Below are positions 1,357 to 60,572 of a stretch of DNA of 64,000 bases, in pieces. The notes below the pieces were generated by a model. It saw only the letters and a program-made list of their open reading frames with translations. It was not told the DNA's origin and did no database searches. Both the position numbers and the translations under genes were made by a program. The stretch's first letter is position 1. Each line of letters opens with the position of its first letter. Source of the stretch: Neoconidiobolus thromboides FSU 785 (taxonomy: Eukaryota > Entomophthoromycota > Entomophthoromycetes > Entomophthorales > Neoconidiobolaceae); the NCBI GenBank assembly GCA_025603075.1, contig MU626304.1, positions 3,031 to 67,030 of the forward strand, given 5' to 3'.

Positions 1357-1457
1357 TGAGGATGATTTTTTTGATTTTATTACTTTTTCCACCTTTTAAG
1401 CGCTATTTGAGCGGAAAATTTGTTAGTAAAATTCTTAAACACAAAAATACATCCCCA
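1357..1457 (+). mobile_element. MITE copy 1, forward, 101 bp
   Basis: Starts TGAGGATG and ends CATCCCCA, with TA on both sides as a 2-bp target duplication. 'Forward' here means the orientation with the T-run followed by GATTTCATTA and the core AAGCGCTATTTGAG. The copy lies 17 bp downstream of the stop codon of the neighbouring inhibitor gene. Confidence 0.9.
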
Positions 1458-1474
1458 TATATTGAATGAATTAT

Positions 1475-1975
1475 TTAGCCATAATATGTTTTTGTTATAA
1501 TAAAATCCTTATCAACAATAACATTTAATCTATCTTCAATATAATCCAAAGTCACAAAAGGAGTATTTGGAGTAATAATACGATTGGGTTTTGGTAAGTC
1601 TGTTCTAAAAACCTAGAATGTAAAAATTAAAACCAATGCCACGAATAAAAATACACTTACAATTTCAATACTAGGATCAGTTTGAGAGCCGCCTTCTTGG
1701 ATTAATTTTTTACCAATATAAGAAGTACCTACACCTTTCTTGTCAGCTTCAGTTACTCTTTTAAGATTGTCAGTGAATTCAAGGCCACTAGATCGATTTA
1801 TCATGATATTCCTAAAATGGTTACGCATCCTATCATCCATTTTAAATTTAGTGTCCTTAATTTTAATATCATTGTTGTTAACTTCTGATGAAGATATAAC
1901 GTTGTCTACTGGCAATTTTGCACTTGAAATAGTAACACTGAGGAAAAGTAAAAATATAGTGCTGAAAAATTTCAT
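1475..1975 (-). CDS. secreted eglin/potato-inhibitor-I-like protease inhibitor, copy 1
   Basis: Two exons, complement(join(1475..1612,1661..1975)), encode 150 residues; the intron (1613-1660) has a GTAAGT donor and CTAG acceptor in phase 0. Residues 1-19 form a signal peptide. The C-terminal ~65 residues match the fold of eglin c/potato inhibitor I (I13) and I78 inhibitors: SYIGKKL near 85-91, then RIITP and the binding loop FVTL-DY (L127-D128), then EDRLNVIVD and a terminal YYG. In eglin c the scissile bond is the Leu-Asp of the same loop, so P1 is predicted to be Leu127, suiting subtilisin- or chymotrypsin-like proteases. That specificity is inference. The long linker between signal and inhibitor domain is unlike the small classical members. 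Two relatives lie at 6.5 and 11.9 kb. Confidence 0.8.
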
Positions 1976-2333
1976 TATTTTAATATTTCAATTTTAGCCT
2001 TCTTTTGTTTTTTATGCTTTTATATTTCATTGAAATTTGTATTCTAAACTTCATTTTGATATGATTTTATTGCAAATTAGTTGATCGTTGTTTGAAGCTG
2101 TTGATAGTCAAATACTATCTTTGTATATCAAATTTGACTTTAAATTTTTATTACTATAGATCACAAAGCCAGATAGCGTTATTGAGAATTACAATTTAGC
2201 AACTATCATCACGTTGAATTTATTATAGTCACAGAAGTTTATAGCGCTAAAACTGTTATACAAAGATTTCAATTTCTCCACTACCAGTATACACATAATA
2301 TCCTTTATAAATAATGAAGTTTGTGACAATAAA

Positions 2334-2432
2334 TGGGATGTATTTTTGTGTTTAAGGATTTTACTAACAATTTTTCTGCTCAAATAGCATTTAAAAAATG
2401 GAAAAAGTAATGAAGCTAAAAAAATATCCTCA
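2334..2432 (-). mobile_element. MITE copy 2, reverse, 99 bp
   Basis: TGGGATG at the left end, ATCCTCA at the right end, with AA flanking both sides: a 2-bp duplication that is not TA. Confidence 0.88.
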
Positions 2433-2670
2433 AATATTATTTTTATAATAAACCTATTTTCATACTATTTAATATAAACATAGATAGATGTGGGAGAACA
2501 CATACATCCAAGTATCATAGGATTCAATTAACAAAAGTAACTTCGCAAGTATATTTTGTTCTTTAGATACGACACATTAACCTATGTGAGACTACATTTC
2601 AAAAATAAGGTTTCCTGACCTATTATTATTGCAAATGATAAGTAAAACTTAATTTGCTTTAAGATATATA

Positions 2671-2766
2671 AGGATGTTTTTTTTGATTTCACTTTTTTCA
2701 TTTTTTAAGCACTGTTCGAGTAGAAAGATTGTTAATAAAATTCTTAAACAAAAAAATATATCACCA
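2671..2766 (+). mobile_element. MITE copy 3, forward, 96 bp, worn ends
   Basis: The internal core (T-run, GATTTCA, TTTTTTAAGCACT, GTTAATAAAATTC) is intact. The end repeats are eroded (AGGATG left, TCACCA right); TA flanks both sides. Confidence 0.85.
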
Positions 2767-10762: not shown

Positions 10763-10881
10763 AGCTTTTAAGATAACCATCTCTTTTTATCTGTTTATTC
10801 ATTCTTTTCTATTTGTAATTAAAATTAAAAAATAAATGCTCACTTTGCTTCATTAAATCAGACTTTATTATTAAGCTCTCC

Positions 10882-15355: not shown

Positions 15356-15456
15356 TGGGAGTGTTTTTTTTGACTTCATTATTTTTTCCATTTTTTAAGC
15401 ACTATTTGAGTGGAAAATTTGTTAGTAAAATTGTTAAACACAAAAATACATCCCTA
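15356..15456 (+). mobile_element. MITE copy 4, forward, 101 bp
   Basis: TGGGAGTG left end, CATCCCTA right end, TA on both sides. Confidence 0.9.
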
Positions 15457-15619: not shown

Positions 15620-15720
15620 TGAGGATGTTTTTTTTGGTTTCATTACTTTTTCCACCTTTTAAGCGCCATTTGAGCAGAAAAATTATTAGCAAAATCCTTA
15701 AACACAAAAATGTATCCCCA
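15620..15720 (+). mobile_element. MITE copy 5, forward, 101 bp
   Basis: TGAGGATG left end, TATCCCCA right end, TA on both sides. It sits 53 bp from the oppositely oriented copy 6, making a large inverted pair. Confidence 0.9.
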
Positions 15721-15773: not shown

Positions 15774-15875
15774 TGGGGATGTATTTTTGTGTTTAACAAT
15801 TTTACTAACAAATTTTCCACTCAAATAGTGCTTAAAAAATGGAAAAAATAATGAAGTCAAAAAAAAACACTCCCA
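15774..15875 (-). mobile_element. MITE copy 6, reverse, 102 bp
   Basis: TGGGGATG left end, CACTCCCA right end, TA on both sides; inverted partner of copy 5. Confidence 0.9.
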
Positions 15876-16104
15876 TATATATTATCAGTTAAAATTGTAT
15901 ATAATTGTGAAACATCACTTTTCCAGCCCCATGGTTAATTATAATATAACAATCACCTAAGCTGCTGTGTTCTCGAGTTCAGAGACAATCAATCCCATGT
16001 TCTTGTTTTGATTCGCTATGAGAATTTTTATCTTCGTCTCAAAGGATACTATCCCCTCATTTTGATATTTGTACTTGTCAGAATATAAAAGAGCTTTTAG
16101 AATA

Positions 16105-16205
16105 TGGGGATGTATTTTTGTATTTAAGAATCTTACTAACAAATTTTCCGCTTAAATAGCACTTAAAAAATGGAAAAAATAATGAAGTCAAAAAAGACAC
16201 TCCCA
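16105..16205 (-). mobile_element. MITE copy 7, reverse, 101 bp
   Basis: TGGGGATG left end, CACTCCCA right end, TA on both sides. A 61-residue open frame over its left end (16142 leftward) is fortuitous. Confidence 0.9.
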
Positions 16206-16255
16206 TATAGTAACTCGGGGTTTTTTAACTTAATTATTCCCTGATATCTCGTACA

Positions 16256-16431
16256 TTTAATAAAGCCACTAAGTTTTCTTAATGGTATTTTGCGTACATT
16301 TCATATTAATGTTGTCTATTATATTTGTCTTACATAGTTCATAGCCTATTACATGCTATTCTTCATAACCCAAGTCTATCTTAGTCACATAAACTAAGAC
16401 CTTTCGACTTATAACATAGTCAACTAGGCAA
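16256..16431. repeat. direct repeat unit A, less decayed copy
   Basis: About 175 bp lying just right of MITE copy 7, similar to 16770-16916 just right of MITE copy 8. Matching blocks include TTTAATAAAGC, TAGTTCATAG/TAGTTTATAG and ATAAACTAAGA. Where the two differ, this copy mostly has C (or G) and the other T (or A). Confidence 0.7.
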
Positions 16432-16594
16432 TAGCTGTTTTTGGCTCCAATCATTGAGTACCAGGTTTCACAGTGCTTACTTTTTTAAATTAAATTTGAA
16501 ACTATAATACTAAATATAAATATTAAAATATACAGAGCTTTTTACTAATCGTTATAATAAAAAACAGCTATTATTATATTTTGTTGTATACAAC

Positions 16595-17122: not shown

Positions 17123-17170
17123 TATATTTGTTTAAAAAATTTACTGACAGCTTTTCTGCTTAAATAGTGT
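17123..17170 (-). mobile_element. MITE internal fragment
   Basis: About 45 bp matching only the reverse-orientation MITE interior (GTTTAAAAAATTTACTGAC, TTTTCTGCTTAAATAGTG); both terminal repeats are missing. Confidence 0.6.
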
Positions 17171-17201
17171 ATCAGCAATAGAAGTAGTAACTGGAAAATA
17201 A

Positions 17202-17628: not shown

Positions 17629-17702
17629 TGGGGATGTGTTTTTGTAATAATTCTACTAATAATTTTTCCACAAAAAAAAGATGAAACCAACAAACACCCT
17701 CA
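17629..17702 (-). mobile_element. MITE copy 9, reverse, 74 bp, internally deleted
   Basis: TGGGGATG left end, CACCCTCA right end, TT on both sides. Roughly 27 bp of the interior is missing, including the AAGCGCT core. Confidence 0.82.
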
Positions 17703-19174
17703 TTTCCTAATAATTTGTGGCTGTTAGTATGCTTTGATATTCTAATTAAGTTAGAATTTGTAACAAGTTTAATATTTGACAAAAAATAAACTTTGAGTTG
17801 AATTTATTAGGAATTCCATAAGTAATGGTGCAAAAAGTGGAGAAATTTGTAGACTCTTTCAATGAGGGTAATAGGTTGCAAAAGTGTAAGCTACTTTTTG
17901 CAAAGTTGGTACTGTTTTTCAGAAAAACATAAATCAGCCGAAAAAATATTAATTAGATGATTGATTGTGTTACAAAAAAATTGATTTTGTCAAAAATTAG
18001 CTCTTTAAAAAGTTCAGAAATTGAATTTACTGTTTTAGCTAAAAGCAATGCTTTTTAGCTGAAATTTTGCATGATTACTTATGAAGTTATCTAATGTATT
18101 AAAATTTCCACCATCTATAGTAAAGCGTTTTTCTAGTTTGAAAATTGCTTCTATTTTATTTAATATAAAATTCAAAAATTTTAAATTAATGTTAAAACTT
18201 TTTTCAAATTGAAATTTAATACAACTTTTGTTTCAGTTAAATTTACCATATAAAAAAATAAACAATTTGTTACCAATTAATAGTAAATAACGTGATTGGT
18301 TGGATTCAGCTGCTAAAAATGAAAAAAACGAATGACAATTTTTGAAACATTAAATTTACTTTAATTAAGTTGAAGCTTAAATTGAAATTCTATTTTTTGA
18401 ACAATATTTGACTTCATAAAACTAGAATATTGTGTTGTTTTATAAATAATAACATTTATTAGTAATAATAGAGATCAATATTACAAAAAAATTACACTTA
18501 TTATAACATAATAACCTAATATTTTAATGAATTACTTATAATTTATTAAATTATAAAATGACATTATGTTTGATCATTAGAACGGATATTTAATTTATTT
18601 ATTTTACATATTAAAAAAGATTATTGGTTAATTAAAAAACATTGTCGGTTTTGAAAGTAAAATAGGCTTAAGCTTCAATTAAAATATTCCACTAGAAGCA
18701 ATTTATTTCATTTATTAATAGCAATTTTAGAACTTCATAGAATAATTTGGTCACTTTACTTCCTTCATTAGAAGAAGAGCCAATGATTTTTTTCCATTAA
18801 ATTGGATTTCTTTATCAATTTCTAAGTTGAGAGTTATTTTGCACTTCATTGGTTAAAATGGTTCAATTTACACAATAACTTTAACTTTAATTGGTTAAAT
18901 CAATCAGGTGGTTTATCAATTTAATTTGATTTGATCCTCAAAGTTTATCTTGAACAATAAAATAGAGTGGTGTTTGTTAGAGCGTGGGAATATTAAATTA
19001 GTTGGTAAAATTTAATAAAATGAAACGTATAAATAAAGTATTGAAACAATATCAAATCCAGTTTTATTTTTTCAAATCTAATTATTTAATATTCAAAAAT
19101 CATCTTTGTATCTATCAACTTTTTTATTTCAATTTTTATCTATCCTTTTTATTTCAATACTTCATCTTCTCAAT
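17703..19174. other. long gene-free interval
   Basis: About 1.5 kb with no supported gene. A 35-codon frame at 17825-17932 has no recognisable relative. The promoter of the lipase gene should lie at the right end. Confidence 0.4.
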
Positions 19175-20254
19175 ATGGCGACCATCAGTCTTAATTTTAA
19201 AGCTACTGCAACTAATTTCATTAACAATTTTACTTTATTAAAAAAACAAAGTATTAGTAAACTCAATTCTTTACTCGAGCAAAAATACAAACGAGTTGTG
19301 ACTAGCATCAGTAACAATACTCCCGCCTTTAATCACAATCATTTACAGCAACAAAACAATTTCGAAGAATATAATTTCCTTCCCATCAATAAAGCATGCA
19401 AAGGAGCGATTGTATTATGTCATGGATTATATGGCTATGATGTTAAAGGACCTAAGAATTATCCACGATTACAAACCCATTATTGGCCAGGAATTAAAGA
19501 AAGTTTAGAGAAAATGGGAAATGAAGTGATTATTACAAAAGTAAATGAAATTGGTACTATTAAAGAAAGAGCTTATCAATTAAATGAACAATTAAATAAG
19601 TTGTGCAAAGATAAACAAGTTAATTTAATTGGTCATTCTATGGGCGGTTTAGATTCTAGATATTTAATTACTCATATTCAAGAGAAAAAGTATAATGTAT
19701 TATCATTAACTACAATCTCCACTCCACATAGAGGGTCATACTTAATTGATTATTTTTTGAAAATATTAAATGAAATGAAGAGTAATACTAATAACAATAA
19801 CAAAAGTGAACAAGAAACAATGTTAAGTGTATTAACTAAATTATACAATACTAACATCTATATGTATAATTTATTAAAATATTTGTTAAATAAGCCAGCT
19901 TATTTTAATTTAAATTGTAATTATATGAAAAATTATTTTAATCCTAATACTCCCAACAATCCCAATATCAAATATTATTCTTATTCAACAAAGGTAGATA
20001 CGGCTCCATTAAGCAACCCATCTCTTCTATTTCCTTATTATGTTATTAATAAATATGAAGGTATTAATGATGGCGTAGTTTCTGTTAATTCAGCTAAATG
20101 GGGAAAACATCTGGATACTATTAATTCATCTCATTTGATGGTGTTAGATGAAACGGATAAAAATTTATTTACTGCTGATAGGCCTGATGTTAAATTTAAC
20201 TCCAAGGATCTTTTTGCTAATATTTCTACCAATTTATACAATAATAACTGTTAA
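19175..20254 (+). CDS. triacylglycerol lipase-like alpha/beta hydrolase
   Basis: 359 residues from the ATG at 19175, no intron; an upstream extension of the frame begins at a TTG and is not used. The core starts with GAIVLCHGLYGYD (oxyanion-hole HG motif), continues with HYWPGIKESLE, and the nucleophile elbow is GHSMGG. It is followed by TTISTPHRGS, typical of intracellular fungal and bacterial triacylglycerol lipases. The Asp and His of the triad are probably in EGINDGVVSVNSAKWG and NSSHLMV. There is no signal peptide, so a cytosolic or lipid-droplet role is likely. A short Asn-rich insert lies near residue 205. Substrate (neutral lipid esters) is inferred from the family. Confidence 0.88.
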   Translation: MATISLNFKATATNFINNFTLLKKQSISKLNSLLEQKYKRVVTSISNNTPAFNHNHLQQQNNFEEYNFLPINKACKGAIVLCHGLYGYDVKGPKNYPRLQTHYWPGIKESLEKMGNEVIITKVNEIGTIKERAYQLNEQLNKLCKDKQVNLIGHSMGGLDSRYLITHIQEKKYNVLSLTTISTPHRGSYLIDYFLKILNEMKSNTNNNNKSEQETMLSVLTKLYNTNIYMYNLLKYLLNKPAYFNLNCNYMKNYFNPNTPNNPNIKYYSYSTKVDTAPLSNPSLLFPYYVINKYEGINDGVVSVNSAKWGKHLDTINSSHLMVLDETDKNLFTADRPDVKFNSKDLFANISTNLYNNNC

Positions 20255-20416
20255 AGATTATTATTGATTATCTCTTATGCTACCTTCTATGATTTCTTCT
20301 CTTTTCTTCTCTTCATTCTTTGCTTTCGTTGTTACTAATAAATAACTTAATAAATTTCAAATTGATTTGTACGTTTTAATTATTAAAAGCTTATAATTTT
20401 TTTTCCTAAAAACATT

Positions 20417-20512
20417 TGGGGATGTTTTTTTTGATTTCATTACTTTTCCATTTTTAAGCGCTATTTGAGTGAAAAAGCTAGTAAAATTCTTAAACAGAAA
20501 AACACATCCTTA
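20417..20512 (+). mobile_element. MITE copy 10, forward, 96 bp
   Basis: TGGGGATG left end, CATCCTTA right end, TT on both sides. It lies between the convergent lipase and WD40 genes. Confidence 0.87.
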
Positions 20513-20649
20513 TTTTTTGTTTTTAAGCTTAAAATACAAATTCTTAGCCAATCTAATAACAATAAAAATCAGTCATAATCAAAAACAAAGCAAATATTGA
20601 TTTTTTAATAATTTCTTTTAATTATAATAGAATTCATCTAACAATGTGT

Positions 20650-22840
20650 TTAATTTAAATCAATAAATCCATTCTCATCATCTTGACCATAGACAATTAC
20701 TTTACCATCTATATAAAAAAGTTATTAACTTATAAGTCCCAAATAAATTAATTATAAAATTTACCTTCAGAGCAAGTAAAAAAATATTTTTCATTAGGAT
20801 GAAATATCAAATCTCGGATTTCTATATCTAATTAATAATAAACAATTAAATCATACTACTTAGTTCATTTGAATATGAAATTTTAAAACTTACCACCATG
20901 ATCTTTTAAAACTCCTTTCACATTTCCAGTAATTAAACAAAATATAAATACTTCTCCATTGACTGTTGGTGCCATTATGTATCTTCCATTACTTGTAATA
21001 TTAATATACCAAGAATTAGAGGCGTACCTAAATAAGTAGAAAATCGACACTTTAATTTATTATTATATCATTCTTATAAACCTTACCTTTCATCTTTAAA
21101 ACACTTTAAATTTTTAATTTTAAATGTATCACCACTAAATTTCGGATAGCATAATATATGTAAATTCACTGTATTTTCAGTATCTGTTAACATATTTCCA
21201 TCATCATCTAATAATTCTACTCCTCGACTAATGAAATAAGCATGATTTCTTTCATTATCATTATCTTCTATTTGATCTTCATATAAGTTATCAAGTTGTT
21301 CTTTAACATCTGGGAATAAATTTAAAAATTTGATGTTATCACAATAAGAACTATAAGGCGATTCAAATTTTTGAACTGGCTAAAAAAATAAATAACAAAT
21401 TACTTATACAAAAATATAAAGAACTTCCTACCTTTGCATGTTCAAAATCAAATAACTTGATCATATTATCACATGCCCCCAAAAAATATTTATTCCCTGT
21501 ATTAGGTAAAAATGATACATTAAAGGCCATACAAGTATCATTATCTTGTATCCTTGTTGAACTTATAATTTCTTTATGATCCTTTGATAATAACCATTTA
21601 TAAATATAACCATCTTGAGAAGTAGATAAATAATAATTTTGACTTTTAAAATAAACCTGTTTGATAGACAAGATTTCTTCTGTATGTGCTTTTAATAAAT
21701 TGATCACTTTTCCAGTTAGTAAATCAAAGACCTAATAATAGCTAATTAGTCAATTTAAACTCTTAACTACAATTAATATCCTAATACAACCTACTTTAAT
21801 ATAACAATCGATTATTTTATTATCATTGTCTTGTTCAGACCAAATTGTACGATCCTTTCTTTTTCCTCCGGTTACAAAGTATTGTTGTGTGGGTGAAAAT
21901 TGGCCTTTATAAAATTCATCTATTTCTGTTTCTTCATTATCTCTTAAAGTTGCTAATAATTTAAAACTTCCAATTTCCCATAATTTTATATGACCTAAGG
22001 AACTCATTGTTGCCAATAATTTGTTATCTTTAGAGAGTTGTAAACCTAAGATAGGACCTATGTGAAGGGAAATATTAGCTTTTATTAAAAAATATAGACT
22101 ATAATTAATTTATTACCTTGATCTTGTATATTATATTCTAATGGTATAAACGATCCGTCATTAAGGTTATTTATAGCACTTTTTTCGTCTATTGGAGAGT
22201 ATGTATCCATAAACATGTACGATAGTTTGGTGATTAATTTGGGATCTAATTTATCTTTCTAATATTAAAATGAATAAATATAAATAATTAAAAATAATGT
22301 TAAAGGAAATGATATTAATAACTACCTTTTCTTTTACTTCTTCCTTTTTCTTTGTACTCTTAACCATTTTTTTACTCTTTCCTTTAACGTATCATAAGCA
22401 CTTAATTTCATTAAAGATAAAGTAATCTAAATTCTTACCTTTAATAGTTTTTTTTTTTACCTCCGTTACTCTATATTAAAAAAAGTAAATCTTCGAACTT
22501 CTACCAAATACTTTAATCAAAAACTTACTTCTTATAGCCTATCTTTGTTTTATTTTTTTTTTTTGAAACAACAAAATCTTCATCATCATCTATCTCTTTT
22601 TCAAGTTCCGATAAATCTAAAGATAAATATGATTAATAAATATGATCAATAAATATAATATAAAAAAAATGTTTTCAATAGTAAAAAGAAGGAACTCAAG
22701 TATGATACTTGATTGTAAAGATATAATAAAATCAAATAATTTTAATATAATTAATGAATCAAACGCTTTTATTTCTCGATCTTCTCTATACAATATATAA
22801 AAATAAATAGCTTACTGAAATCCACATCTGACACATCCAT
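20650..22840 (-). CDS. conserved WD40-repeat protein, 11 exons
   Basis: complement(join(20650..20708,20765..20827,20894..21027,21087..21379,21432..21731,21795..22057,22117..22258,22326..22381,22439..22470,22529..22616,22816..22840)) encodes 484 residues in frame. The first ~75 residues are acidic then very lysine-rich, a likely nuclear or nucleolar signal. The rest folds as WD40 repeats; striking segments are FYKGQFSP, TGGKRKDRTIWSE, NYYLSTSQDGYIYKW, SFLPNTGNKYFLGACDN and PYSSYCDNIKF. I recall this combination from otherwise unnamed conserved eukaryotic WD40 proteins, but I cannot attach a gene name. Expected role: scaffold in a nuclear complex (inference). The second shortest exon is only 32 nt. 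Confidence 0.82.
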
Positions 22841-23844
22841 ATTTTCAACCTTTCTTAATTCAAAGTCAAAAATTATCCAATCCCTAATCCTTCTTTATCT
22901 TTTATAAAAATTCTTCTTCCATCACAACTTTGAATGATTCAAACTTCCAATTTCTTTGGTTCAAAATTAGTGCAGTTTCGTAATTGATTCGTTCATTTTT
23001 TCTAAGATTGAGATTTGCCTTTTAAATTTAAAAATTGCTTTTTTTTAGAATGATTGAGGAATTTAAGGATGGGTTGCAGAATTTAGTGAATAAATTTCAG
23101 ATTTTGGGTTGAAATGCCTAAATTTTTGCAGTCAAAAAAGGAATAACATGAATTTGTGACTAGGTTTGTTAGAACAAAAAGTAAACATTAAGTAATAATA
23201 TGCTATTGCTCGTTTTGATTAAAAATATATTGAAACATTCTTTATGTAATTAGATATAATATATTTTGTTTAATAAATCATGGCTACTAAACGATTACTA
23301 ATTATTTGAACTTACAACTCAGCTTTTTTGTAGTTTAAATGCTCTTTTTTTATAAAAAATATCAGGATGTCTCTTTTTGTTAAAGAATTTTACTAACTTT
23401 TCTATTCAAATAATACTTTCAAGATGGAAAAAATGAAATCAAAAAAAAAATCCCCTCAAATAATTTATCAGTAATTAAAATACAAACATTACTGAGTTTA
23501 AAAATGTAGTCCAAGATATAAAAAAGATCAATCAAACAATAATGATAATAACAAAACGCATTAAAATAGCTTTTATATAAAACCCTTTCAATGTAAATAC
23601 TTTCATTTATTATTAAATATTTCTGTTTTTAACATCAAAAAACTAACGATTTTGATGGAAAAAAACCAAACCTTTGAAGCCTTAAACTCCAACCAATCAA
23701 AGCACACTATCGTCATAAGGTTAAAGTTCAAGCAATTGACCAAGCAGGACAGTAGACTCTTTTATAATTCAATATGCCTACCTCATTATAAACAAAACAA
23801 ATAAATAAAACAAGAAAAACAAACTATAGAAAACAAATACAAAA
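22841..23844. other. divergent promoter region with one MITE
   Basis: 1 kb between the divergent WD40 and HECT genes; apart from MITE copy 11 nothing identifiable. Confidence 0.4.
23362..23458 (-). mobile_element. MITE copy 11, reverse, about 97 bp, worn
   Basis: TCAGGATG left end, CCCCTCA right end; TA left and AA right. The interior (AAGAATTTTACTAAC, GGAAAAAATGAAATC) is recognisable. Confidence 0.8.
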
Positions 23845-26800: not shown

Positions 26801-27486
26801 ATACTGGAGATGTAGAAAAAGATTTTGGCTTAAATTTTACATTAATTGATAAAGATTCAACAGGAAATAGAGCAATTGAATTAATACCAAATGGTGAAAA
26901 GATAGCAGTAACTTCAATGAATAAAATTGAATATATTTATTATGTAGCCAATTATCGATTAAATAAACAAATTCAAAAACAATCAACAGCCTTTTTAAAT
27001 GGAGTTAATGAAATCTTACCTTTACATTGGTTAAAAATGTTTAATGAAAAAGAATTACAAATGGTAATAAGCGGAACCGAACAAGCCATTCAAATCTCTG
27101 ACTTCCAAGAAAACACTGTATACTCTGGAGTATATGATCAAAATCATCCATTAATTATTGCTTTTTGGGAAATTGTTAAAGAAATGAATCATGATACAGT
27201 AGCTAGATTATTAAAATTTATTACTTCTTGTCAAAGACCTCCATTACAAGGTTTTAAAGCATTAAACCCACCACTTTGTATTAGAGATTCTGGCAGATCA
27301 GATGAGTGGCTTCCAACCGCTTCTACTTGTGTTAATTTATTAAAGCTACCAATTTATTCTTCTAAAGCGATATTAAAAAAGTAAAATTTCGAGTTATAAA
27401 ATGTTAGCATGAGTTATTAATTTATTGTTTTTTTTAGGAAGTTATTGTATGCTATCAATTCAGAATCTGGGTTTGAATTGTCTTAA
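23845..27486 (+). CDS. HUL5: HECT E3 ubiquitin ligase, UBE3C/Hul5 type
   Basis: Exons 23845-24003, 24061-24301, 24358-24463, 24517-24576, 24626-24725, 24777-25097, 25143-25221, 25279-25650, 25707-26250, 26310-27380 and 27438-27486 give 1033 residues. The N-terminus (MWNFEGKTTQRKAINLGG, then a basic NREERKKREE stretch and an IQ-like segment) matches UBE3C/Hul5, proteasome-associated ligases that extend ubiquitin chains on hard-to-degrade proteins. The HECT domain fills the last ~370 residues: GIDGGGVFKEF, GRMVGKALYEG, and the catalytic Cys1001 in LPTASTCVNLLKLP, followed by the usual ending KLLYAINSESGFELS encoded by the last exon. Intron 3 has a GC-AG boundary (AG/GCAAGT). Cytosolic/nuclear with the proteasome. 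Confidence 0.95.
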
Positions 27487-28412
27487 GGTGGAAAGAAGGG
27501 GCTATAATAAGATAACGTGATTTGACTGTAGTTTAAATATGAAGGATGAATAGGGTTTATGTTTGTTTTTAAGATTAATAAAATGGGGATTCTATTTTTG
27601 TAGTTGTGACATAATTTATAACTAGTTTAATAGTTCATTATATTATGTTATAATATCATCATGAATTACTATTAAATGCATTTGTATTATACTGTCCGTT
27701 CATTACCGTTGATTATAATATTATCAATTATTATAATCATCTCAACTAATATAAGTAAGCTAAGAATTTATTATTTAATGAATAATTTTATTATTAAAGT
27801 TTATATCAAGTTAGTTCATAAATAATAAAAACCCCTTTTTAAAAAAATTAAGAACACTAGTTATATTTATATAAGGGGAGTGTTTTTTTGAGTATTTTTA
27901 ATAAAGTCTATTAGTCAGAGTTTACTATACTTAAAAAGGTAAATTTATATTATAGAAAATTACTACCATTACAACTATTCACCCCTAAGATTTTAGATTT
28001 TCCCAAAAAAAAAATAAGCATTTATAAAGCTATCTAATGCCAAAGCAAAGAGATGGGTACTTTTTTTTAAATTCAGAAAACCTGTTGTGTATTCCTACCA
28101 CTTTTAAAATTGAACGTTACTGTCTAAATAAATAAGGGCATTCAAAGCGTAACCTTGCTGAGATCATTTTCCCACGCAAATTTAGAATAGAATCATTGTT
28201 TTGAAAATTTTCTAAATGGAGGAATTTGATTGGTAAAAAATTTAGACTAAAATTATTCTGAATTCAAAAGGTCAAAATCAAGCATAATTTCAAAGTATTA
28301 TAAAAATTAATCTTTTTAACTCTCCAAATTACTTCTTATTTGTTATTGAACTTTCAACCTATATTTTCCTCAATAAACTTACACATAAACATAGCAATAG
28401 AAAAACCAAAAA
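27487..28412. other. intergenic, HUL5 3' side to two-TM gene
   Basis: AT-rich, no gene. Contains one orphan MITE end (27874). The last ~90 bp resemble the sequence upstream of the paralogous gene at 30698. Confidence 0.4.
27874..27891 (+). mobile_element. possible solo MITE left end
   Basis: AGGGGAGTGTTTTTTTGA after TA matches the forward left terminus; no interior or right end follows. Confidence 0.4.
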
Positions 28413-28772: not shown

Positions 28773-29034
28773 GGTTATGTTTAATTGTAGTATTTTTTGT
28801 AGAAATATAATTATGGAGATTGTAGAAATTATTAAAATTGAAATAAAGTTTTTTGGCTGAGATATTTTTTTATTAGATTTTAGGTATAATAGCGTTTTTG
28901 TTGTCTTTCTATTGTTACTTTACTTGCTTTTGGTATAGTTATCTTGATGTTATTTTTGATTTGATTTTATGAATTTTCAATAAAACTCGGCTTATTCTTT
29001 GAAGCTCGCTTTCGTATTAGAAATTTTGTAAAAT

Positions 29035-29132
29035 TGCGGATGTATTTTTTTGTTTAAGAATTTTACTGATAGCTTATCCATTCAAGTAGTGCTTAAAAAT
29101 GGAAAAAGTAATGAAATCAAGAAATACCCCCA
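29035..29132 (-). mobile_element. MITE copy 12, reverse, 98 bp
   Basis: TGCGGATG left end, TACCCCCA right end, AT on both sides. Confidence 0.87.
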
Positions 29133-29306: not shown

Positions 29307-29407
29307 TGGGGATGTTTTTTTTGGCTTCATTATTTTTTCCATCTTTTAAGTGCTATTTAAATGGAAAATTTGTTAGTAAAATTCTCAAATACAAAAATAC
29401 ATCCCCA
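29307..29407 (+). mobile_element. MITE copy 13, forward, 101 bp
   Basis: TGGGGATG left end, CATCCCCA right end, AA on both sides: a near-perfect copy with a non-TA duplication. Confidence 0.92.
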
Positions 29408-29616: not shown

Positions 29617-29717
29617 TGAGGGTGTTTTTTTTGGTTTTATCACTTTTTCTATCTTTTAAGCGCTATTTGAGTGGAAAAATTATTAGTAAAAGTCTTAAAC
29701 ATAAAAATACATCCCCA
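29617..29717 (+). mobile_element. MITE copy 14, forward, 101 bp
   Basis: TGAGGGTG left end, CATCCCCA right end, TA on both sides. Confidence 0.92.
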
Positions 29718-32459: not shown

Positions 32460-32560
32460 TGGGCATGTATTTTTATGTTTAAGAATTTTAATAACAATTT
32501 TTCCACTTAAATAACGCTTAAAAAATGGGAAAAGTAATGAAACTAAAAAAAATACCCCCA
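32460..32560 (-). mobile_element. MITE copy 15, reverse, 101 bp
   Basis: TGGGCATG left end, TACCCCCA right end, TA on both sides. Confidence 0.9.
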
Positions 32561-32729: not shown

Positions 32730-32830
32730 TGGGGATACGTCTTTTTATTTAATAATTTTATTAATAATTTTTCCTCTCAAATTGTATTTAAAAACCGAAA
32801 AGAGATAATAAAATTAAAAAAACATTATCA
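32730..32830 (-). mobile_element. MITE copy 16, reverse, about 101 bp, degenerate right end
   Basis: TGGGGATACGT left end after TA; the interior is recognisable but the right terminus has decayed (ACATTATCA). Confidence 0.75.
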
Positions 32831-33475: not shown

Positions 33476-33575
33476 TGGGGATGTTTTTTTTTGTTTCATT
33501 CCTTTTCCACCTTCTAAGCGCTATTTGAGTGGAAAAATTGCTAGTAAAATTCTTAAATACAAAAACACATCCCCA
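33476..33575 (+). mobile_element. MITE copy 17, forward, 100 bp
   Basis: TGGGGATG left end, CATCCCCA right end, TA on both sides. Confidence 0.92.
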
Positions 33576-33939: not shown

Positions 33940-34039
33940 TAGGGATGTATTTTTGTGTTTAAGAATTTTAATAACAACCTTTCTACTTAAATAGCGCTTA
34001 AAAAATGGAGAAGTAATCAAATCAAAAAAAACATCCCCT
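33940..34039 (-). mobile_element. MITE copy 18, reverse, about 100 bp
   Basis: TAGGGATG left end after TA; CATCCCCT right end with imperfect flank. Confidence 0.85.
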
Positions 34040-41367: not shown

Positions 41368-42505
41368 TGTTCTATAAAGAAATTATTGTTAAATTTAATT
41401 TATTATTTTAAATCGGATACTTTCTATCCTTTTACCTTTTATTCTTCTTGATAATAAAATTTTATAAAATTTTATAAAGCTCCAATTATTGATTTCAATC
41501 CCATTTTTTAAAATCTTTAAATTCCTCATTTTTTAGTGAGTTTCTTTTCGAATGAAGTTACTTGTTTAATTTTGGCTTCATTTGATAGGCTTAAAGTTAC
41601 ATTTGAGATTTAATTGCAAAGTTTCAAGAAATGAGTCAGAATAATTCAATTAATTTAATTAGGTTTTTACTCAAGTTCATTTTTTCAAATCTAATTTGAA
41701 TACAAAAATCAAACTTTTAGAACTTAATAGTTAAATAAAGAGTAAACAAAACTAATCATCAAATTTTTAATAATGTTAATTTCAAACTAGTTTGAAATTT
41801 ATTATATTTTAAATTATATAAAATAATATAATATTCCAAATATCTCCTTATTTCTAAAATAAATCTATATGAAAGTAGTTTCTAGTATTATTGTTTTTTG
41901 CATTTTTTTAAGCACTATTAAATAAAAAAATTATTAGTAAAATTCTCAAATAAAATAAGAGATACTTGAATAATTCACTATTTACTTCTAATCCTTTGAG
42001 TATCAAACATTTCAAAAAAAAACTTGATTCAATTGAAATGGAATTCTAGATATTATTTTAACATAATATTCTATACTCCTTATAAAATTATTCGATCATA
42101 ATCAACTAACATTATCCCCACCTTTTGGGTGCTTTTCTTTCATATACATTATAGCTAAACATTAATGTCCTTTATATTTGATGCTTTTGATATTTGTTTG
42201 ACTTTATATTAAATTATAAAATATTAAGATTATAAGTATTATCTTTATATCATGAGACTTTATAAAGTTAAACTCAAGTAGCTATTACTAAATTTTATTG
42301 GACATTTTCATTAGAGTTTCTTTGCTTTTTTACTCAAAAAATCAGTTATTGACTATAATAGTAAAAAAGTAAAATTGTTATTTAAATATTAGTAATATGA
42401 AATTTAAATGCATAAGAGCTGTAAAAGTATTAATAAAATAAAATAATACTTATTTAGAGTAATCAATAAATTCTATTTAACAACTTAAAAAAATCAATCA
42501 TGATA
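41368..42505. other. intergenic region upstream of FRS1
   Basis: AT-rich, no gene. Contains a decayed MITE at 41868-41975. Confidence 0.4.
41868..41975 (+). mobile_element. decayed MITE copy 19, forward
   Basis: Only the interior is recognisable (TTTTTTTAAGCACTATT, then AAAAAATTATTAGTAAAATTC). Both terminal repeats are gone or unrecognisable, so the ends are approximate. Confidence 0.65.
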
Positions 42506-42606
42506 TGGGGATGTTTTTTTTGATTTCATTACTTTTCCATTTTTAAGCGCTATTTAAGTAGAAAGAGATTGTTAGTAAAATTCTTAAACAAAAAAATATA
42601 TCCCCA
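42506..42606 (+). mobile_element. MITE copy 20, forward, 101 bp
   Basis: TGGGGATG left end, ATCCCCA right end, TA on both sides. Confidence 0.92.
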
Positions 42607-43055: not shown

Positions 43056-43156
43056 TGGGGATGTATTTTTGTGTTTAAGAATTTTACCAACAAATTTTCC
43101 ACTCAAATAGCGCTTAAAAAGTGGAAAAAATAATGAAGTCAAAAAAAACACTCCCA
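43056..43156 (-). mobile_element. MITE copy 21, reverse, 101 bp
   Basis: TGGGGATG left end, CACTCCCA right end, TA on both sides; very similar to copy 6 at 15774. Confidence 0.92.
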
Positions 43157-45630: not shown

Positions 45631-46947
45631 TTTAAGAGTTAATCTTTAAAAAAGAAATAAAAACAAGTTGCTTTTTGTTTTAATGCATCAATTTTCATAT
45701 TTGGATTTTAATGCATTTAGTGTCATTTGATTTGTAATTCTAAAATTTGATTGGCTGCCGATTTGTCCTAGTTTGTCAATAAATGCTTGTTTCATAATTT
45801 GGTTGTCCAATGATCATATTTTATTGGACCAATTTTAAACAATTTAAAAACAAAACTATTCAGGGATGTAAATTGTTTGTTATAAAACTTTACTACATTT
45901 TGTGAATATTAAATAGCTTACAGATATAATTTTGTTAATCAAAAATATACTGTTTTGCATTAAGCCATATTAATTATTACATTTAATAGAGATATATTAC
46001 TTTGTTTTATAAAGATTTAAATAATTAACTACATGATAATAGTCAAACTTTCTTAGAACAATCAATATTGAAAACAATAAACAAGCACAAAAAGCGATGA
46101 TATAAGAGACTTTAAGGTGATTGAAGCAGATAAAAGCTATAAATCACATTTCCTGATCAAAGAAAATGACGCAAAAGGCTTTTTAACTTAGTAGATCTCT
46201 TCAATCTATAAGGAAATAACGATTATTCTTTAGATATTGAACTTTATCATTATATAATGGCACTTAAAATTGAAAAAGCTAGGAACACTAGATTATAAGT
46301 TACTTCATCAAAAGTTCAATTGATGTTTCACACAATCAACATGGTTTCTAAATAAAGAGTATCACTATATGGGGATGTTTTTTTGATTTCATTACTTTCC
46401 CATTTTTTAAGCGCTATTCGAGCGGAAAGATTGTTAGTAAAATTCTTGAACAAAAAAATACATCCCCCTATATTGTATAAAAAAGGCTCAAAGCTAAGGA
46501 AAAGAATGAAGGCTATTCAATGCAATAAAGCAGTTTGTAGCTCTTAAAAGCTAGATAGTTTTTGGTTTCTTGAAATTCCTTTTTGACGTTTGGTGCTATT
46601 GAAATAGTATTTATGTTTCAAAAATAATTTACATTAAGCTGTTTTTTTTGAACTATCAAAAATTTTATTGTTACTACACTTTAAAAAGTATTTAGTTACT
46701 ACTATTTATTACATGGAACATTAAATGCAAAAGCTAAATTCAAAAAACACAATGTAAATTTTCGATTTCTTTGATACTAATTTAAAGAAATTATTTGATA
46801 TCAAATTAAAATATGACATATGTAGTGTTTTTACATGGTAGCAATTTAATTACTATAAGAACATAACAAGAGAAAAGGCAAGTACAATATTACTCCTTTA
46901 TTTTTAGGTTACTTTAACATTATTAAATACAAGTTAAATTAAAATAA
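45631..46947. other. intergenic interval with one MITE
   Basis: 1.3 kb between the divergent acyl-CoA synthetase and the kelch gene; only MITE copy 22 was identified. Confidence 0.4.
46370..46470 (+). mobile_element. MITE copy 22, forward, 101 bp
   Basis: TGGGGATG left end, CATCCCCCTA right end, TA on both sides. Confidence 0.9.
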
Positions 46948-48480: not shown

Positions 48481-48577
48481 TAGGTATGCTTTTTTTGGCT
48501 TCATTTTTTTCCATTTTTTGAGCGCTATTTGAGTAGAAAAGCTATTTAATAAAATTCTTAAAAAAAATACATCCTCA
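48481..48577 (+). mobile_element. MITE copy 23, forward, 97 bp
   Basis: TAGGTATG left end, CATCCTCA-like right end (ATCCTCA), TA on both sides. Confidence 0.85.
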
Positions 48578-48781: not shown

Positions 48782-48879
48782 TGGGGCTGTTTTTTTAGTT
48801 TGATTATTTTTCCATTTTTTAAGTGCTATTTGAGTGGAAAGATTATAGTAAAATTCTTAAACAAAAAAACACATCCCCA
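48782..48879 (+). mobile_element. MITE copy 24, forward, 98 bp
   Basis: TGGGGCTGTTTTTTTAGTTT left end, CATCCCCA right end, TA on both sides. It shares the variant GCTG/AGTTT with copy 25, so the two are sister copies. Confidence 0.9.
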
Positions 48880-49062: not shown

Positions 49063-49160
49063 TAAAGCTGTTTTTTAGTTTCATCATTTTTCTATTTTTT
49101 AAGCGTTATTTGAGCGGAAAAAGTGTTAGTAAAACTCTCAAATAATAAAATACATCCCCA
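49063..49160 (+). mobile_element. MITE copy 25, forward, 98 bp
   Basis: TAAAGCTG left end, CATCCCCA right end, TA on both sides; sister of copy 24. Confidence 0.87.
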
Positions 49161-52333: not shown

Positions 52334-53502
52334 TTAATTTTCTAATTCACCATTATTCATCTCTGCTTCTTCTAATAAATTATTTAACATAGTCAAACTC
52401 TCTTTCTTTAAATTCTTTCCTTTTGCCCATTCAATAATGGTATTAATTGAGTTTATTATCATTTCTTTATTATTATTACCATTTATTACTGTTTCACTTA
52501 AAGGTTGCTCATTATCATTACCTACTGCTGCTTCATCCAGGATTCGTTTATTATTATCATTTATTGTCACTTCATCTAAAGGTCGTTTATTCCCATTGTT
52601 TGGTACTACTTCGCTCAAAGGATGCGTAATACTCCCTATAGCATTTTCCACTTCTTTATTATTATTAATCATCACTTCGTTCACTATATTATTATTACTT
52701 GTGACCACATTTGACATTTCATTAAAGCTGTTATCAATACCATTTATTCCATTTAATAACTCACTATCAATTGAGATTCCAGTAATATCAAAATCTTCCA
52801 CATCAATAGAATTCAGTTTATTGCTATTATTGGTAAAGTCATTGATGATTACATATAAGCCATTCAAACTTTTGAGTAAGCTTTCATTACTCAACTCATT
52901 CCAACATTCATTTAACAACTCCTCTTTTTTTAAATTGTTATTATTATCTGCTAACCTAAGTTTGAAATTCTGTTTTAAAACAGAATTGATATCACTTTCA
53001 TTGTCAATGTTAACAGGTAAGTAAAATAACAATATGTTTGAATTATAATAAATTAACTTTTGCCTTTTCCTTATTTTAAGTTTACTCTTAACTATTATTA
53101 ATATCTTACTATTATCTTCTATTTTATTACTTGTTTGTTTAATGAATTCCTTTTCAACCCATTCTTTAATTAACTCTTCTTTACTTTCTTCGATTTCTTT
53201 GGTTTTGGCCTTGCTATTATTACTAATGCTATCATTGTTATCATTGATGCTATTATCGTTGTTATTAGTATTATTATCTTTATTATTTATATTGATAAAA
53301 CTACTGTTATTAATGTCCGTGATATTGCTATCAATGGTAATGTTAGTTAGGATACTATCGTTATGATCATTAACGTTGCTAAGAGTACCATTAAAAGTAT
53401 TTGTACTATTATCATCATTAATAGTATTGTATATGATGCTATTAATTTTGTTGATTTCATCATTATCTACATTACCATCATTACTGCTATTCGCATTATT
53501 GA

Positions 53503-53535
<33 letters not shown>

Positions 53536-54190
53536 CGATATTGCCATTAGTAATATTGATATTTTTTGCCTCTTTTTTTAATTTAGTTGGCATGTTTTTC
53601 CTACTTAAACATAATTTGTGACTACCAGTTAAATTAACACAGGTTATAATTAAGTTATCATCATCAAAAACATCTCTATAATCCTCATCTGAATATATGT
53701 ATATATTTTCAATCATCAAATTAAGCTGCTTGAATTCTTCTCTATATTTACTTAACATCAACTTTAATGTTGTTTCATTATTGCTATTAATTGAAATCCC
53801 ATTTCTTGCTTTAAATTTACCTAACCAACCGTCACTAGCTTTGAACGGAGTATCATACCCCATCTGTTTATGAAACTCAATAGCTTTAGCTTGAATTTGC
53901 CAATTTTTAATTATACTTCCATTGTTAAGTTCACTTTGAATCCAAGCGACCAACTGATCTTCAATTTCGGTGAATAAACCAAACTGTACCGTTTTTTTAT
54001 TGATGAAGCTTGAGTTTTTGGAAACAAACGATTCAATTTTTTCTTTTTTCTTTTTAATACGCGTTATAATGCTCTTATCAATGTTAAACTCTAAACATAG
54101 TTGTTTCGCTTTTTCTCCATTTTCTATTCTTCTTAATATCTCCAACTTTGTCTCTATACTTATTGGTCTACGTTTGCTTTTTTCACTCAT
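52334..54190 (-). CDS. CENP-B-like domesticated pogo/Tigger transposase
   Basis: 618 residues, no intron; the start is the ATG at 54190 (the open frame continues to a TTG at 54256). Residues 8-58 form a psq-type helix-turn-helix (PISIETKLEILRRIENG...) and 72-134 the CENP-B second helix-turn-helix (EDQLVAWIQSELNNG, AIEFHKQMGYD, FKASDGWLGKFKARNG). A DDE-domain remnant follows (TCVNLTGSHKL near 183-193), then an Asn/Asp-rich insert (~211-340), then a C-terminal remnant (ILIIVKSK, NILLFYLPVN, KQNFKLRL). Canonical catalytic VDNAPSH and QPLDQG have lost their aspartates; only SDED near 167-170 may keep the first. An intact ORF with a dead catalytic site fits a host DNA-binding protein like fission yeast Abp1/Cbh1. 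Confidence 0.85.
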
Positions 54191-54337
54191 TTTTGATTTT
54201 AAATTATAGAAATTAATTTTTTGATAAAATGTAGTTTTTATTTTTACTTCCACCAATTAAAAATTACTGCCCAAAATCAAAAATTATTCAATTTGAATTA
54301 AAATATTTTATTTGATTTTCAATAATATTTTCTAAAA
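54191..54337. promoter_or_regulatory. shared divergent promoter, CENP-B-like gene and LCP5
   Basis: Only 147 bp separate the two start codons, so both promoters must overlap here. No TATA box or named element can be singled out in the AT-rich DNA. Confidence 0.55.
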
Positions 54338-57479: not shown

Positions 57480-58490
57480 TATATTTTTTTAACAAACAAA
57501 ACTATGATCAGTTTTTACCTTTTTATAGATGCGCTTGAAGCATCACAAAGAAGCATCATTGATTGGTCATTATCTTTATTTTTGAGCCAATGAATTATAG
57601 CCATATTTGAGGATCAAAATTATGGGGTAAATTACTATATTTAGTTTAACTATTGATTAAAAAAACTACATTGAGAATTAACAGTATGTTCTAAAGTTAA
57701 GCTAAAATATCAAATCTAAATGTACATCCTTGTCAGTATCTAAAAATCAGAAAAGCAGATTTATCCATCTAATACGCTTTCTATGATAATAAGTCTTTTC
57801 ATTTCTTTTGTTCATAAAAAATATTTAATAATTGATTAGTTTCTTTAAGTTTTTTAAAAGTTGAATTTTATAAATTGGGATTTTTTAGGCAAATTAGAAG
57901 AAAAATATAATAAAATTTACTTTAAATAATCAATACTATATTTTTTATTTAATCACCTTTAGTTGTTAAAGAGAGAATCCTTACTATTGGCCATGTTTCT
58001 ACTTTTTGACATTTTCAATTAGAGATTATTAGTCATTCAATACAAGTACATTTCTAAACTAGAAACTTCTCAAAGTCAATGTAAAAGCTTTGATTACAAT
58101 CACAAATACTAAATAAAATAATACTTTCATATCAGAAATTGACTATATTAAATTAAATATACATACAATAAACAATCTCATTTTATAAAAAGCAACATAG
58201 TATTTTAAAGTTTTTAAGTATATTTTTTAATATTTACAATTAATTATTTGGGGTATTTTTATACAAAAATAATTCACTTAGTGTTTTTGAGTTCATGTAC
58301 AATTGTGGTATAATATTCCAATTTTAATAATAATCTGATAAAGATAAGCAATTTAGAGAAAAATAGTTGATTGAATAACATCAATAATTCTATGATTAAA
58401 AAACTCAATAGCAAATATTAATACAAAGTGCAAAAGTACAAAAGTACAAAAGTATAAAAGATAAACGAAATAAAATACTTTCACTGAAAA
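57480..58490. other. intergenic between divergent SPT2 and F-box genes
   Basis: 1 kb, no gene. A short tandem run of AAAGTAC units is at 58430-58457, just before the F-box gene. Confidence 0.45.
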
Positions 58491-59819
58491 ATGGAATTAA
58501 AATTAGAGTATCTACCTTTAGTTGTATTAGATGAAATTTTTAAGTTAGTATCTCCAAAAGAATTGTTTAAGTTACGCTTTTTAAATAAATATTTATTTAA
58601 TACTATAAATGATACTATTAAATATAATTTGACTTATTCAATATATAGTCATTATGAAATTAAGGAGTATAATAAATGTCAGGAGGATTTTATTAAAAAA
58701 AATGGACTAATGATGAGGCATTTGAGTATAAATGATAACAATGTGGAATATTTGAATTATTGTCCTAACATCTTAACTCTAAGCTATAGCAATAATATAC
58801 GAAAATTTAACAACAGTATTGTCGATAAATCAAACAATAAGATGGACGTCAACCTGGTGAAATTAAGGAAGATTATTATTAATACATCAAGTAATGATGA
58901 CTGCTGTCAACTATTTGAACAATTTAAGGCCTCCTTATACCAACTTGAAATGATTGAAATCAACAGCTATTGTGGAGATTTAGAAAATATAATTAAATAT
59001 TTAAATCCTAATAAATTAAAGATATTTAAATTGTACTCTGATGATTATTTAAATATTAATGGATTGGCTACAATCAAAACTAAATTCTACAACCTAAAGG
59101 TGCTACATTTGAAGTTTAATAGACATATTATTACACCGAAGGAGTATAGATACAATATAAATTTTAGCTCAAATTTGGAATTAATAGTTGAAGGTGACTT
59201 TTATTTGAATTTCAACATCAATTGTCTTGGAAGTCTAAGTAACTTAAAAAGCGTGAAACTAATAGATACTTCCGGTTCTTTATTTAATGCAGATAGCAAT
59301 GATATAAAATCAATTGAAAGTGGCAATATAATCAGTCTAGGCTATCTTGATATAGTCAATTCAATCAAATATCATTTAGTCAATTTACCAACATTAAGAG
59401 AAGTATATTTTAATGAGTTAACAATGGAAAAGCTAAAATTAATTTCTATGCTATCTAACATTGAAGTTATTCATATCAATTATTTAAACTTTGATAGCAA
59501 GAGCATTATTCAAATCCCTAGCTCAAGCAGTAGTGATAATCGTAAAACAGAGTCTCGATTATATAAATGTAACTTCATAAAACAAATTACAATTGATTTT
59601 TACCATCCTTCATATGAGCAGTTTATTTCTTTTTTGCTTTTATTTCCAAAACTTAACGCAGTTAAAATTAATAATTTTGATTTAATAGCTAAACACAAAA
59701 CTATTGATTTTAAACTAAATACCCCTTTGTTACTTACCACTCCTGCCATATCTTATACCAATATAAGCGCTTTCAATGAATTGGCTAATACTCCAATGCT
59801 AAATTGGATTAGAATATAA
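58491..59819 (+). CDS. F-box protein with leucine-rich-repeat-like region
   Basis: 442 residues, one exon. An F-box occupies about residues 4-42 (LEYLPLVVLDEIFKLVSPKELFKLRFLNKYLFNTIN), with the usual Leu-Pro and Leu/Phe positions. The rest is a succession of irregular leucine/isoleucine-rich units (LKVLHLKFN, LKSVKLIDT, IEVIHINYLNF, LNAVKINNFD) compatible with a leucine-rich-repeat substrate receptor. It should pair with Skp1 in an SCF ubiquitin ligase; the substrate is unknown. Such single-exon F-box/LRR genes form large families in several early-diverging fungi. Confidence 0.8.
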   Translation: MELKLEYLPLVVLDEIFKLVSPKELFKLRFLNKYLFNTINDTIKYNLTYSIYSHYEIKEYNKCQEDFIKKNGLMMRHLSINDNNVEYLNYCPNILTLSYSNNIRKFNNSIVDKSNNKMDVNLVKLRKIIINTSSNDDCCQLFEQFKASLYQLEMIEINSYCGDLENIIKYLNPNKLKIFKLYSDDYLNINGLATIKTKFYNLKVLHLKFNRHIITPKEYRYNINFSSNLELIVEGDFYLNFNINCLGSLSNLKSVKLIDTSGSLFNADSNDIKSIESGNIISLGYLDIVNSIKYHLVNLPTLREVYFNELTMEKLKLISMLSNIEVIHINYLNFDSKSIIQIPSSSSSDNRKTESRLYKCNFIKQITIDFYHPSYEQFISFLLLFPKLNAVKINNFDLIAKHKTIDFKLNTPLLLTTPAISYTNISAFNELANTPMLNWIRI

Positions 59820-60051
59820 TGATTTGATATTCGAATTATATAGCAGTATCAATGATATCAAAAGCTTTCTTAACGGCTGATATATATGTCCTTGTTTGTA
59901 CTATTGCTTAAATAAGCCCTCAATTCATTGGTAGCTATTAATACCATCATCTACTTTTTACATTTCAATTTTGTTTATTTGTGAAATTTACTTCATTCAC
60001 AATAAAAAACTGCTAATTTATGTAAATTATCATTAAATTAAATAAAAGATT

Positions 60052-60150
60052 TGGGGGTGTTTTTTTTGGCTTCATTACTTTTTCTATCTTTTAAGTGTTA
60101 TTTAAATGGAAAAACTATCACTGAAATTCTTACATAAAAATACATCCCCA
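60052..60150 (+). mobile_element. MITE copy 26, forward, 99 bp
   Basis: TGGGGGTG left end, CATCCCCA right end, TT on both sides. Confidence 0.88.
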
Positions 60151-60471
60151 TTTATTAAGTACAAAATTTAAAAATAAGATAAAAAGGTATTTTAGTTCAA
60201 AATTTTATTGAAGACCAATACTTAATCATAAAGAATGAGTCTTTTGTTTTATTTTTTATTTCATATTGTCATTAAAATATTTATAGAATCTGGTCGAGCT
60301 AGCTTGTTTTAAAAAAATAAAGACTCAAAAATAATCACAAATGTTTCTAAAAATGGTATATTAGAAAATATGTTCACTATATATAACGCTAAAGTTCAAC
60401 ATTATATTAAAAAATTGTTATAACTAAAACATTGTTTTTATAGCGTATTTATCAATAATCTATTTAATATA

Positions 60472-60572
60472 TGGGGATGTTTTTTTTGACTTCATTATTT
60501 TTTCCATCTTTTAAGCACTATTTGAATGGAAAATTTGTTAGTAAAATTCTCAAATACAAAAATACATCTCCA
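60472..60572 (+). mobile_element. MITE copy 27, forward, 101 bp
   Basis: TGGGGATG left end, CATCTCCA right end, TA on both sides. Confidence 0.92.

Follow-up and report, generated by a model that had tools for sequence, protein, structure and literature searches.

We conclude that a 64-kb stretch of the Neoconidiobolus thromboides FSU 785 genome (contig C47:3031-67030, hereafter the window, from an assembly of 23,116,642 bp in 392 contigs) carries many copies of one family of miniature inverted-repeat transposable elements (MITEs), which very probably spread by cut-and-paste with the help of a DDE transposase supplied in trans. With equally high confidence we suggest, from comparison of the ends, that a family of ~2.4-kb coding elements in the same genome, or a close relative of it, was the source of the transposase that moved them. 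The odds that this coding family is of the Sola2 type appear evenly balanced. Mobilisation by a transposase encoded elsewhere was already proposed in a preliminary description of this DNA, and is now well supported by target duplications, empty insertion sites and the related coding element.

That description counted about 26 copies of about 101 bp in both orientations. An nhmmer profile built from MITE copies recovers 29 in the window (Table 1), spanning 375-60571, with 16 on the plus and 13 on the minus strand; the family and its presence on both strands are real, while the count is higher and the median unit is 98 bp. The length is largely uniform, as had been stated (93–101 bp in 109 of 117 copies), with some truncated copies (e.g. 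17629-17701). Exact matches to TGGGGATGT occur at 18 places in the window (0.1 expected), and the interior is conserved as described, a 20-mer from it being present with ≤3 mismatches at 20 places (0.03 expected). When the same profile was applied to a 200-kb sample (twenty 10-kb stretches, bases 20001-30000 of each of contigs C1-C20), 61 matches were obtained, two of them halves of one copy separated by a run of N, which makes 90 for window and sample together. The density in the window, earlier put at one per 2.4 kb, is one per 2.2 kb and exceeds the average over the sample, one per 3.3 kb. The family is far from confined to the window: the interior 20-mer is found at 3,547 places genome-wide with ≤2 mismatches, against 0 for a reversed control. 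As the 20-mer is kept within 2 mismatches in half of the 90 matches, these places imply ~7,094 copies; a figure of ~7,055 follows from the density in the sample. Both extrapolations rest on one sample and are not fully independent. MITEs account for 2.8% of the sampled DNA, or roughly 0.65 Mb when extrapolated to the genome.

The termini are inverted, as first described (GGGGATGT...ACATCCCC), and the near-palindromic unit forms a hairpin (fold z -4.6), but its boundaries had to be moved: the preferred reading is GGGG...CCCC, with the outer T/A of TGGGG...CCCCA belonging to a 4-bp target duplication, and MITE-type ends have GGGGATGTTTTTTTTG / CAAAAATACATCCCC as their outermost bases. The copies encode no protein, in agreement with the earlier account; 0 of 90 lie more than half inside a stop-to-stop frame of ≥100 aa, compared with 30 on random placement (minimum 15). 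The copies have no long flanking homology in common, 4 short matching pairs being seen among 174 masked flanks; as they are also spread over the genome, neither of the conditions that the earlier account named as refuting it applies. Of five MITE traits tested, four were found (a short non-coding unit, inverted ends with a hairpin, duplications with empty sites, and a high, dispersed copy number); for the fifth, ends in common with an autonomous element, the left end agrees in register with the long element described below at 29–31 of 42 positions, the right end is weakly alike, and no intact element with identical ends was found.

Two earlier statements, that the copies are near-identical and that their low divergence reflects recent amplification, do not hold. 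Seventy-three aligned copies differ on average by 12.4% from their consensus and by 19.6% pairwise, and in a set of 118 rows the mean distance from consensus is 12.7% (range 5–25%), with a median of 10.3% to the nearest neighbour. Subfamilies are present, and near-twins, identical or 1% apart, are occasional (L033, L007, L017). A mean divergence of 12–13% indicates that amplification occurred in several waves, and not in one recent burst.

The target duplication was examined in 149 profile matches from 351,521 bp, of which 117 copies were kept after removal of duplicates, of one double count and of copies that had unreadable ends or lay near the end of a locus. Identical 4-mers flank 71 copies, against a mean of 40.8 on random re-pairing (maximum 49 in 1000 trials). 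Flank lengths of 1, 2, 5 and 7 bp stay inside the shuffle range, and those of 3 and 6 bp slightly exceed it (9 and 8 observed, shuffle maxima 8 and 7). The 71 exact duplications comprise ATAT (57), AAAT (6), ATTT (5), AATT (1), ATTA (1) and TTAT (1), so that all except the last two (69/71) follow the pattern AWWT. For left flanks that deviate from ATAT at positions 1 to 4, the right flank carries the same letter in 6/19, 13/22, 12/23 and 4/11 cases, respectively (expected 1.6, 3.1, 3.2 and 0.7). Genome-wide, copies with perfect 8-bp ends, counted for five flank combinations, gave ATAT/ATAT 208, AAAT/AAAT 56, AAAT/ATAT 3, TTAT/TTAT 8 and TTAT/ATAT 2. The wider target context is ANNATATNNT, with A at the third base before the duplication in 68% and T at the third base after it in 66% of 73 copies.

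Empty sites agree with these counts. An exact 24-base empty site with an ATTT duplication corresponds to the insertion at L037:1057 (empty in L033, L038 and L039), and exact sites with ATAT to those at L040:2935 (empty in L037, L039, L042 and L043) and L040:1150 (empty in L037, L038 and L039). For the window copy at 16105-16204, the related repeat L006, 82% identical over 469 bp, has a single ATAT at the insertion point. Matches to empty sites at 3–4 mismatches in this AT-rich DNA were set aside as likely chance. The exact empty sites and the genome-wide pairing counts show that the MITE makes a 4-bp A/T target duplication, and not one of TA. The piggyBac and Kolobok families use TTAA targets and were ruled out, TTAA being found in 0 of 71 exact duplications. 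A PIF/Harbinger (Tourist) target of 3 bp, the length stated as 'Tourist-like 3bp' in PMC4405373, was likewise ruled out by concordance at all four positions and by the excess of TTAT/TTAT over TTAT/ATAT. We also dropped the idea of an introner, raised by a TACTAAC-like word on the reverse strand, because of the 4-bp duplication and the occurrence of both orientations at one site.

A search for the end pattern AWWTGRGGNTGTNNVNV (A/T-flanked GRGGNTGT without a T-run) returned 186 places, against 89 for its reversed control, and led to the long elements. These are ~2.4 kb in length, have ends of the GGGG-TGT / GGGGTTGTC type, start with GGGGTTGTCYRAATTRGTTTCA or near it, and carry an imperfect terminal inverted repeat of ~22 bp (GGGGTTGTCYGAATTR). 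Ends paired ~2.5 kb apart in L033 and L034, with a shorter copy in L035. At least 11 of 100 listed long-type ends lie fewer than 800 bases from a contig start, as expected of collapsed long repeats. In the window itself, tblastn found no coding remnant of a long element. Both ends were read in five long copies, three of which (L033, L034 and L044) are flanked by ATAT on both sides. Aligned in register, the right end of the long element matches the left end of the MITE at 31 of 42 positions in L033, L034, L039, L044 and L049 (the last compared by its one clear end) and at 29 of 42 in L035, the agreement including the inner TTCATTA..TTTT.TCCA.TTTTT. Over positions 10–42 the match is 22–25 of 33, and 24 was reached at 2 of 167,501 MITE-masked positions. 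L049 (34-1603), 1.6 kb in length, derives from the long element by deletion, starts with GGGGATGTC, contains one nested MITE and has no ATG/GTG/TTG frame of 60 aa; its end GGGGATGTCTAAATTGG is intermediate between MITE and long element.

Stretches matching the transposase number 132 in the genome, by eye ~100 separate places, many with stops. The longest frames free of N have 415 aa (L042) and 381 aa (L043); that of L044 has 566 aa in a locus holding 490 N. In no copy read here is the whole coding region open (introns are possible), and the family may therefore have ceased to be active; an intact copy may exist elsewhere in the genome. Four diverged loci, 50–64% identical to the query, hold 2–7 MITE matches each and have no clear ends of their own. 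The homologues (~470–650 aa) share putative catalytic residues D282, D365 and E398 (P0125), of which D365 is invariant and the other two are ≥90% conserved in 43 sequences. A predicted integrase-like core with D, D and E in order, its strand/helix order and matches to integrases and Mos1 all point to a DDE-type enzyme. The fold assignment rests on VIA-align's second look at the Foldseek list, since Foldseek alone gave no match below E 0.001 (top rows Argonaute and Mos1), and no sequence-based link to the PDB was obtained. None of the Pfam transposase models recognised the family, which therefore merits a model of its own, and the proteins retrieved by profile searches were fungal and metagenomic, none with a transposase name. 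The one Pfam domain seen more than once is DUF7869, matched by 2 of 43 members, with the match on display falling below the cut-off. Single members of alignment A4 matched Intein_splicing, Flu_C_NS1 and Emr1 (E 0.0003–0.005), which we take as stray; of the homologues outside A4, P0194 has a Myb domain above the cut-off, and a ribosomal L32 domain is given for P0190.

MITEs are nested in these transposase loci, and such insertions are one cause of the broken coding regions. Fifteen loci (44,016 bp, flanks included) contain 35 MITE matches, or one per 1.3 kb against one per 3.3 kb in the 200-kb sample, L043 and L044 having none; relative to non-coding DNA alone the excess would be smaller, because MITEs appear to avoid genes. 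A particular ATAT lying between catalytic blocks two and three (L043 position 1843) could be located in 9 of 14 loci, and is filled in L033, L034, L040 and L041 and empty in L037, L038, L039, L043 and the diverged L047. Two of its fillings lie in each orientation and the four MITEs differ by 7–14%, which requires at least two independent insertions; the identity of the L033 copy to one elsewhere (L007) suggests further ones. Four other positions (1138, ~1216, 2067 and 2377) seem common to two loci each, and may reflect common descent or mapping error. At L033 2633-2641 and L035 1217-1225 a MITE lies immediately next to a long-element terminus and shares its ATAT, as if the MITE had inserted into the target duplication itself.

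We propose that a DDE transposase would recognise the GGGG-TGT ends together with the inner block and, acting in trans, would excise the MITE, which would then be inserted at an A/T 4-mer in the preferred context, duplicating the 4 bp. The MITE retains little beyond its end regions, folds into a hairpin and is far more numerous than the coding element, whose transposase activity may have been lost through decay and MITE insertion.

Several observations weigh against this account. Some of them (the differing first bases, the weak likeness of the opposite ends, and the failure to find a coding element with exact MITE ends) favour an alternative in which a different, possibly extinct transposase family moved the MITE and the long elements share just the target preference and terminal G's. 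The first 17 bases of MITE and long element differ except for GGGG-TGT, and the opposite pair of ends (MITE right, long left) is weakly alike. At the outermost bases, GGGGATGTTTTTTTTG in the MITE stands against GGGGTTGTCYGAATTR in most long elements, so that the exact partner subfamily was not found. Use of the majority consensus (GAC, not GGC, at positions 16–18) lowers every in-register score by one. In local-alignment tests the MITE left end outscored every one of 200 shuffles in one long copy of four; for the MITE right end compared with the left end of the long element the figure was likewise one of four, since this null is raised by AT-rich runs. Flanks are mismatched in two of the five long copies, L035 (ATTT/ATAT, with a MITE beside) and L039 (ATAT/AATA), and transposition itself was not observed. 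A search for long elements with exact MITE ends gave 42 candidate places, by eye mostly MITEs with insertions or deletions, and no coding one was found, two being examined closely (L031, a solitary end, and L032, MITE variants). Nevertheless, the in-register agreement, which extends to the inner block, the ATAT flanks of long elements and the 132 transposase stretches make a different transposase improbable. At L031 (C8:150928), the solitary end reads ATAT followed by GGGGATGTTTTTTTG and passes into unrelated sequence, with no clear partner in the 5.5 kb of sequence inspected.

A MITE of the Stowaway type, mobilised into TA by a transposase of the Tc1/mariner or pogo kind, would fit the TA at the centre of the commonest target, and traces of pogo exist in the form of two DDE_1 matches in the genome and an HTH_Tnp_Tc5 protein in the window. 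A strict TA target is ruled out by the AAAT, ATTT and AATT duplications, the exact ATTT empty sites and the 56 AAAT/AAAT against 3 AAAT/ATAT pairs. The two DDE_1 loci (~3.4 kb each), the only candidates for a pogo partner, have no MITE-like end at ≤2 mismatches and were rejected, and we regard this explanation as very improbable. Segmental or tandem duplication of intergenic DNA around a conserved non-coding signal, such as a transcription terminator or regulatory hairpin, could account for hairpin-forming copies outside long frames, and some copies may later have acquired a regulatory use. As an origin of the family it is barely credible in view of the scarcity of flank matches, the exact empty sites with target duplications, and insertions in both orientations at a single site.

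Returning to the DDE family that we favour, its nearest described counterpart is Sola2, whose 4-bp duplications are rich in A and T, being AWWT in Dictyostelium fasciculatum and ATAT, AAAT and ATTT in Polysphondylium pallidum (PMC3627910). The terminal inverted repeats given there, 12–21 bp, are also comparable with the ~22 bp imperfect repeat of the long element. By the same account, however, a 7-kb 5' part is common to the P. pallidum families, and the transposase of D. fasciculatum has 888 aa, in contrast to the ~2.4-kb element and shorter homologues here (PMC3627910). A further difference is that no Fanzor-type (PF07282) match was found in the N. thromboides genome. No protein from Cavenderia or Heterostelium, which we take to be the present names of the amoebae with Sola2 elements, was among the 96 listed homologues (7,990 candidates scored). 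We therefore call the family Sola2-like by its target duplication, and not a proven member. A less likely, though not negligible, version is that the partner represents a DDE lineage of early-diverging fungi without a Pfam model and perhaps separate from Sola2, and that the swarm limits itself: MITEs would prefer the transposase gene, above all the one ATAT that separates catalytic blocks two and three, and would in this way have shut down their own source of transposase.

Other short families compare less closely. Stowaway-like elements are similarly short, AT-rich, hairpin-forming and abundant, but those described from microsporidia duplicate TA, as opposed to the 4-bp A/T targets (including AAAT, ATTT and AATT) seen here (PMC4405373). 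MITEs of another fungus, Mycosphaerella graminicola, include some of <200 bp; among the 12 of its 13 families with duplications given, nine have 2 bp, two 5–6 bp and one 8–9 bp, with none of 4 bp, and all 13 families total 98,726 bp, against the roughly 0.65 Mb extrapolated here (PMC4522978). Published repeats make up 13.5% of the N. thromboides genome, in a survey whose main text does not use the word 'MITE', and ~7,000 copies at 2.8% (extrapolated) would represent roughly a fifth of them (PMC10515909). Our literature search, which covered few subscription journals, found no published account of this MITE. As an example of MITE amplification from an early branch of the fungi, the family is compact and can be counted. 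Its nested copies come with exact empty sites, which allow target choice to be measured and not guessed, and the recurrent insertion at one site in the gene presumed to mobilise them opens to direct test the idea of MITEs extinguishing their own transposase.

Table 1. MITE copies in the window detected with the nhmmer profile (positions are those of the window; E-values where reported).
Position	Strand	Element and flanks	nhmmer E
375..450	-	MITE, partial	4e-05
1358..1456	+	MITE, ATAT both sides	2e-27
2335..2431	-	MITE	2e-23
2672..2765	+	MITE, left end decayed	1e-19
15357..15454	+	MITE, ATAT both sides	
15621..15719	+	MITE, ATAT both sides	
15774..15874	-	MITE, ATAT both sides	
16105..16204	-	MITE, target duplication ATAT, empty site in paralogous repeat copy L006	
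16596..16693	-	MITE, flanks AATT/AGTT	
17127..17189	-	MITE fragment	3e-06
17629..17701	-	MITE, internal deletion (~72 bp), AAAT both sides	
20417..20509	+	MITE	
23364..23455	-	MITE, ends decayed	
29036..29131	-	MITE, AATT both sides	
29308..29407	+	MITE, AAAT both sides (in genome-wide AAAT/AAAT set, C47:32334-32440)	
29618..29717	+	MITE, flanks GTAT/ATAT	
32461..32559	-	MITE, ATAT both sides	
32731..32823	-	MITE, left end decayed	
33476..33574	+	MITE, ATAT both sides	
33942..34038	-	MITE	
41880..41962	+	MITE fragment	3e-06
42506..42606	+	MITE, ATAT both sides	
43056..43155	-	MITE, ATAT both sides	
46371..46467	+	MITE, flanks ATAT/CTAT	
48483..48576	+	MITE, left end decayed	
48783..48879	+	MITE, ATAT both sides	
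49069..49159	+	MITE, left end decayed	
60053..60150	+	MITE, ATTT both sides	
60472..60571	+	MITE, ATAT both sides	

The window has a GC content of ~25% and holds fungal reading frames for a Zn2Cys6 factor, a HECT ligase, PheRS beta, an AMP-binding protein and an F-box protein. The HTH_Tnp_Tc5 protein is a 640-aa frame on the minus strand (52334-54256) with long Asn-rich stretches and a DNA-binding domain of the CENP-B-like type, and is possibly a domesticated or decayed pogo-type protein; both DDE_1 matches map to other parts of the genome. A second repeat of ~470 bp (15905-16494), split by the MITE at 16105-16204, starts with TGTGAAAY and ends with TTTCACA, ends that resemble those of a solo long terminal repeat or a hAT-like element, and has matches of 75–83% identity in L006, L031, L040, L041, L043, L046, L047, L048 and L049. 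Finally, a lipase frame (19172-20251, in the region 19082-20254) equals a deposited N. thromboides protein except for one 22-residue stretch, which the deposited model (236 aa) leaves out although it is open in the genome.

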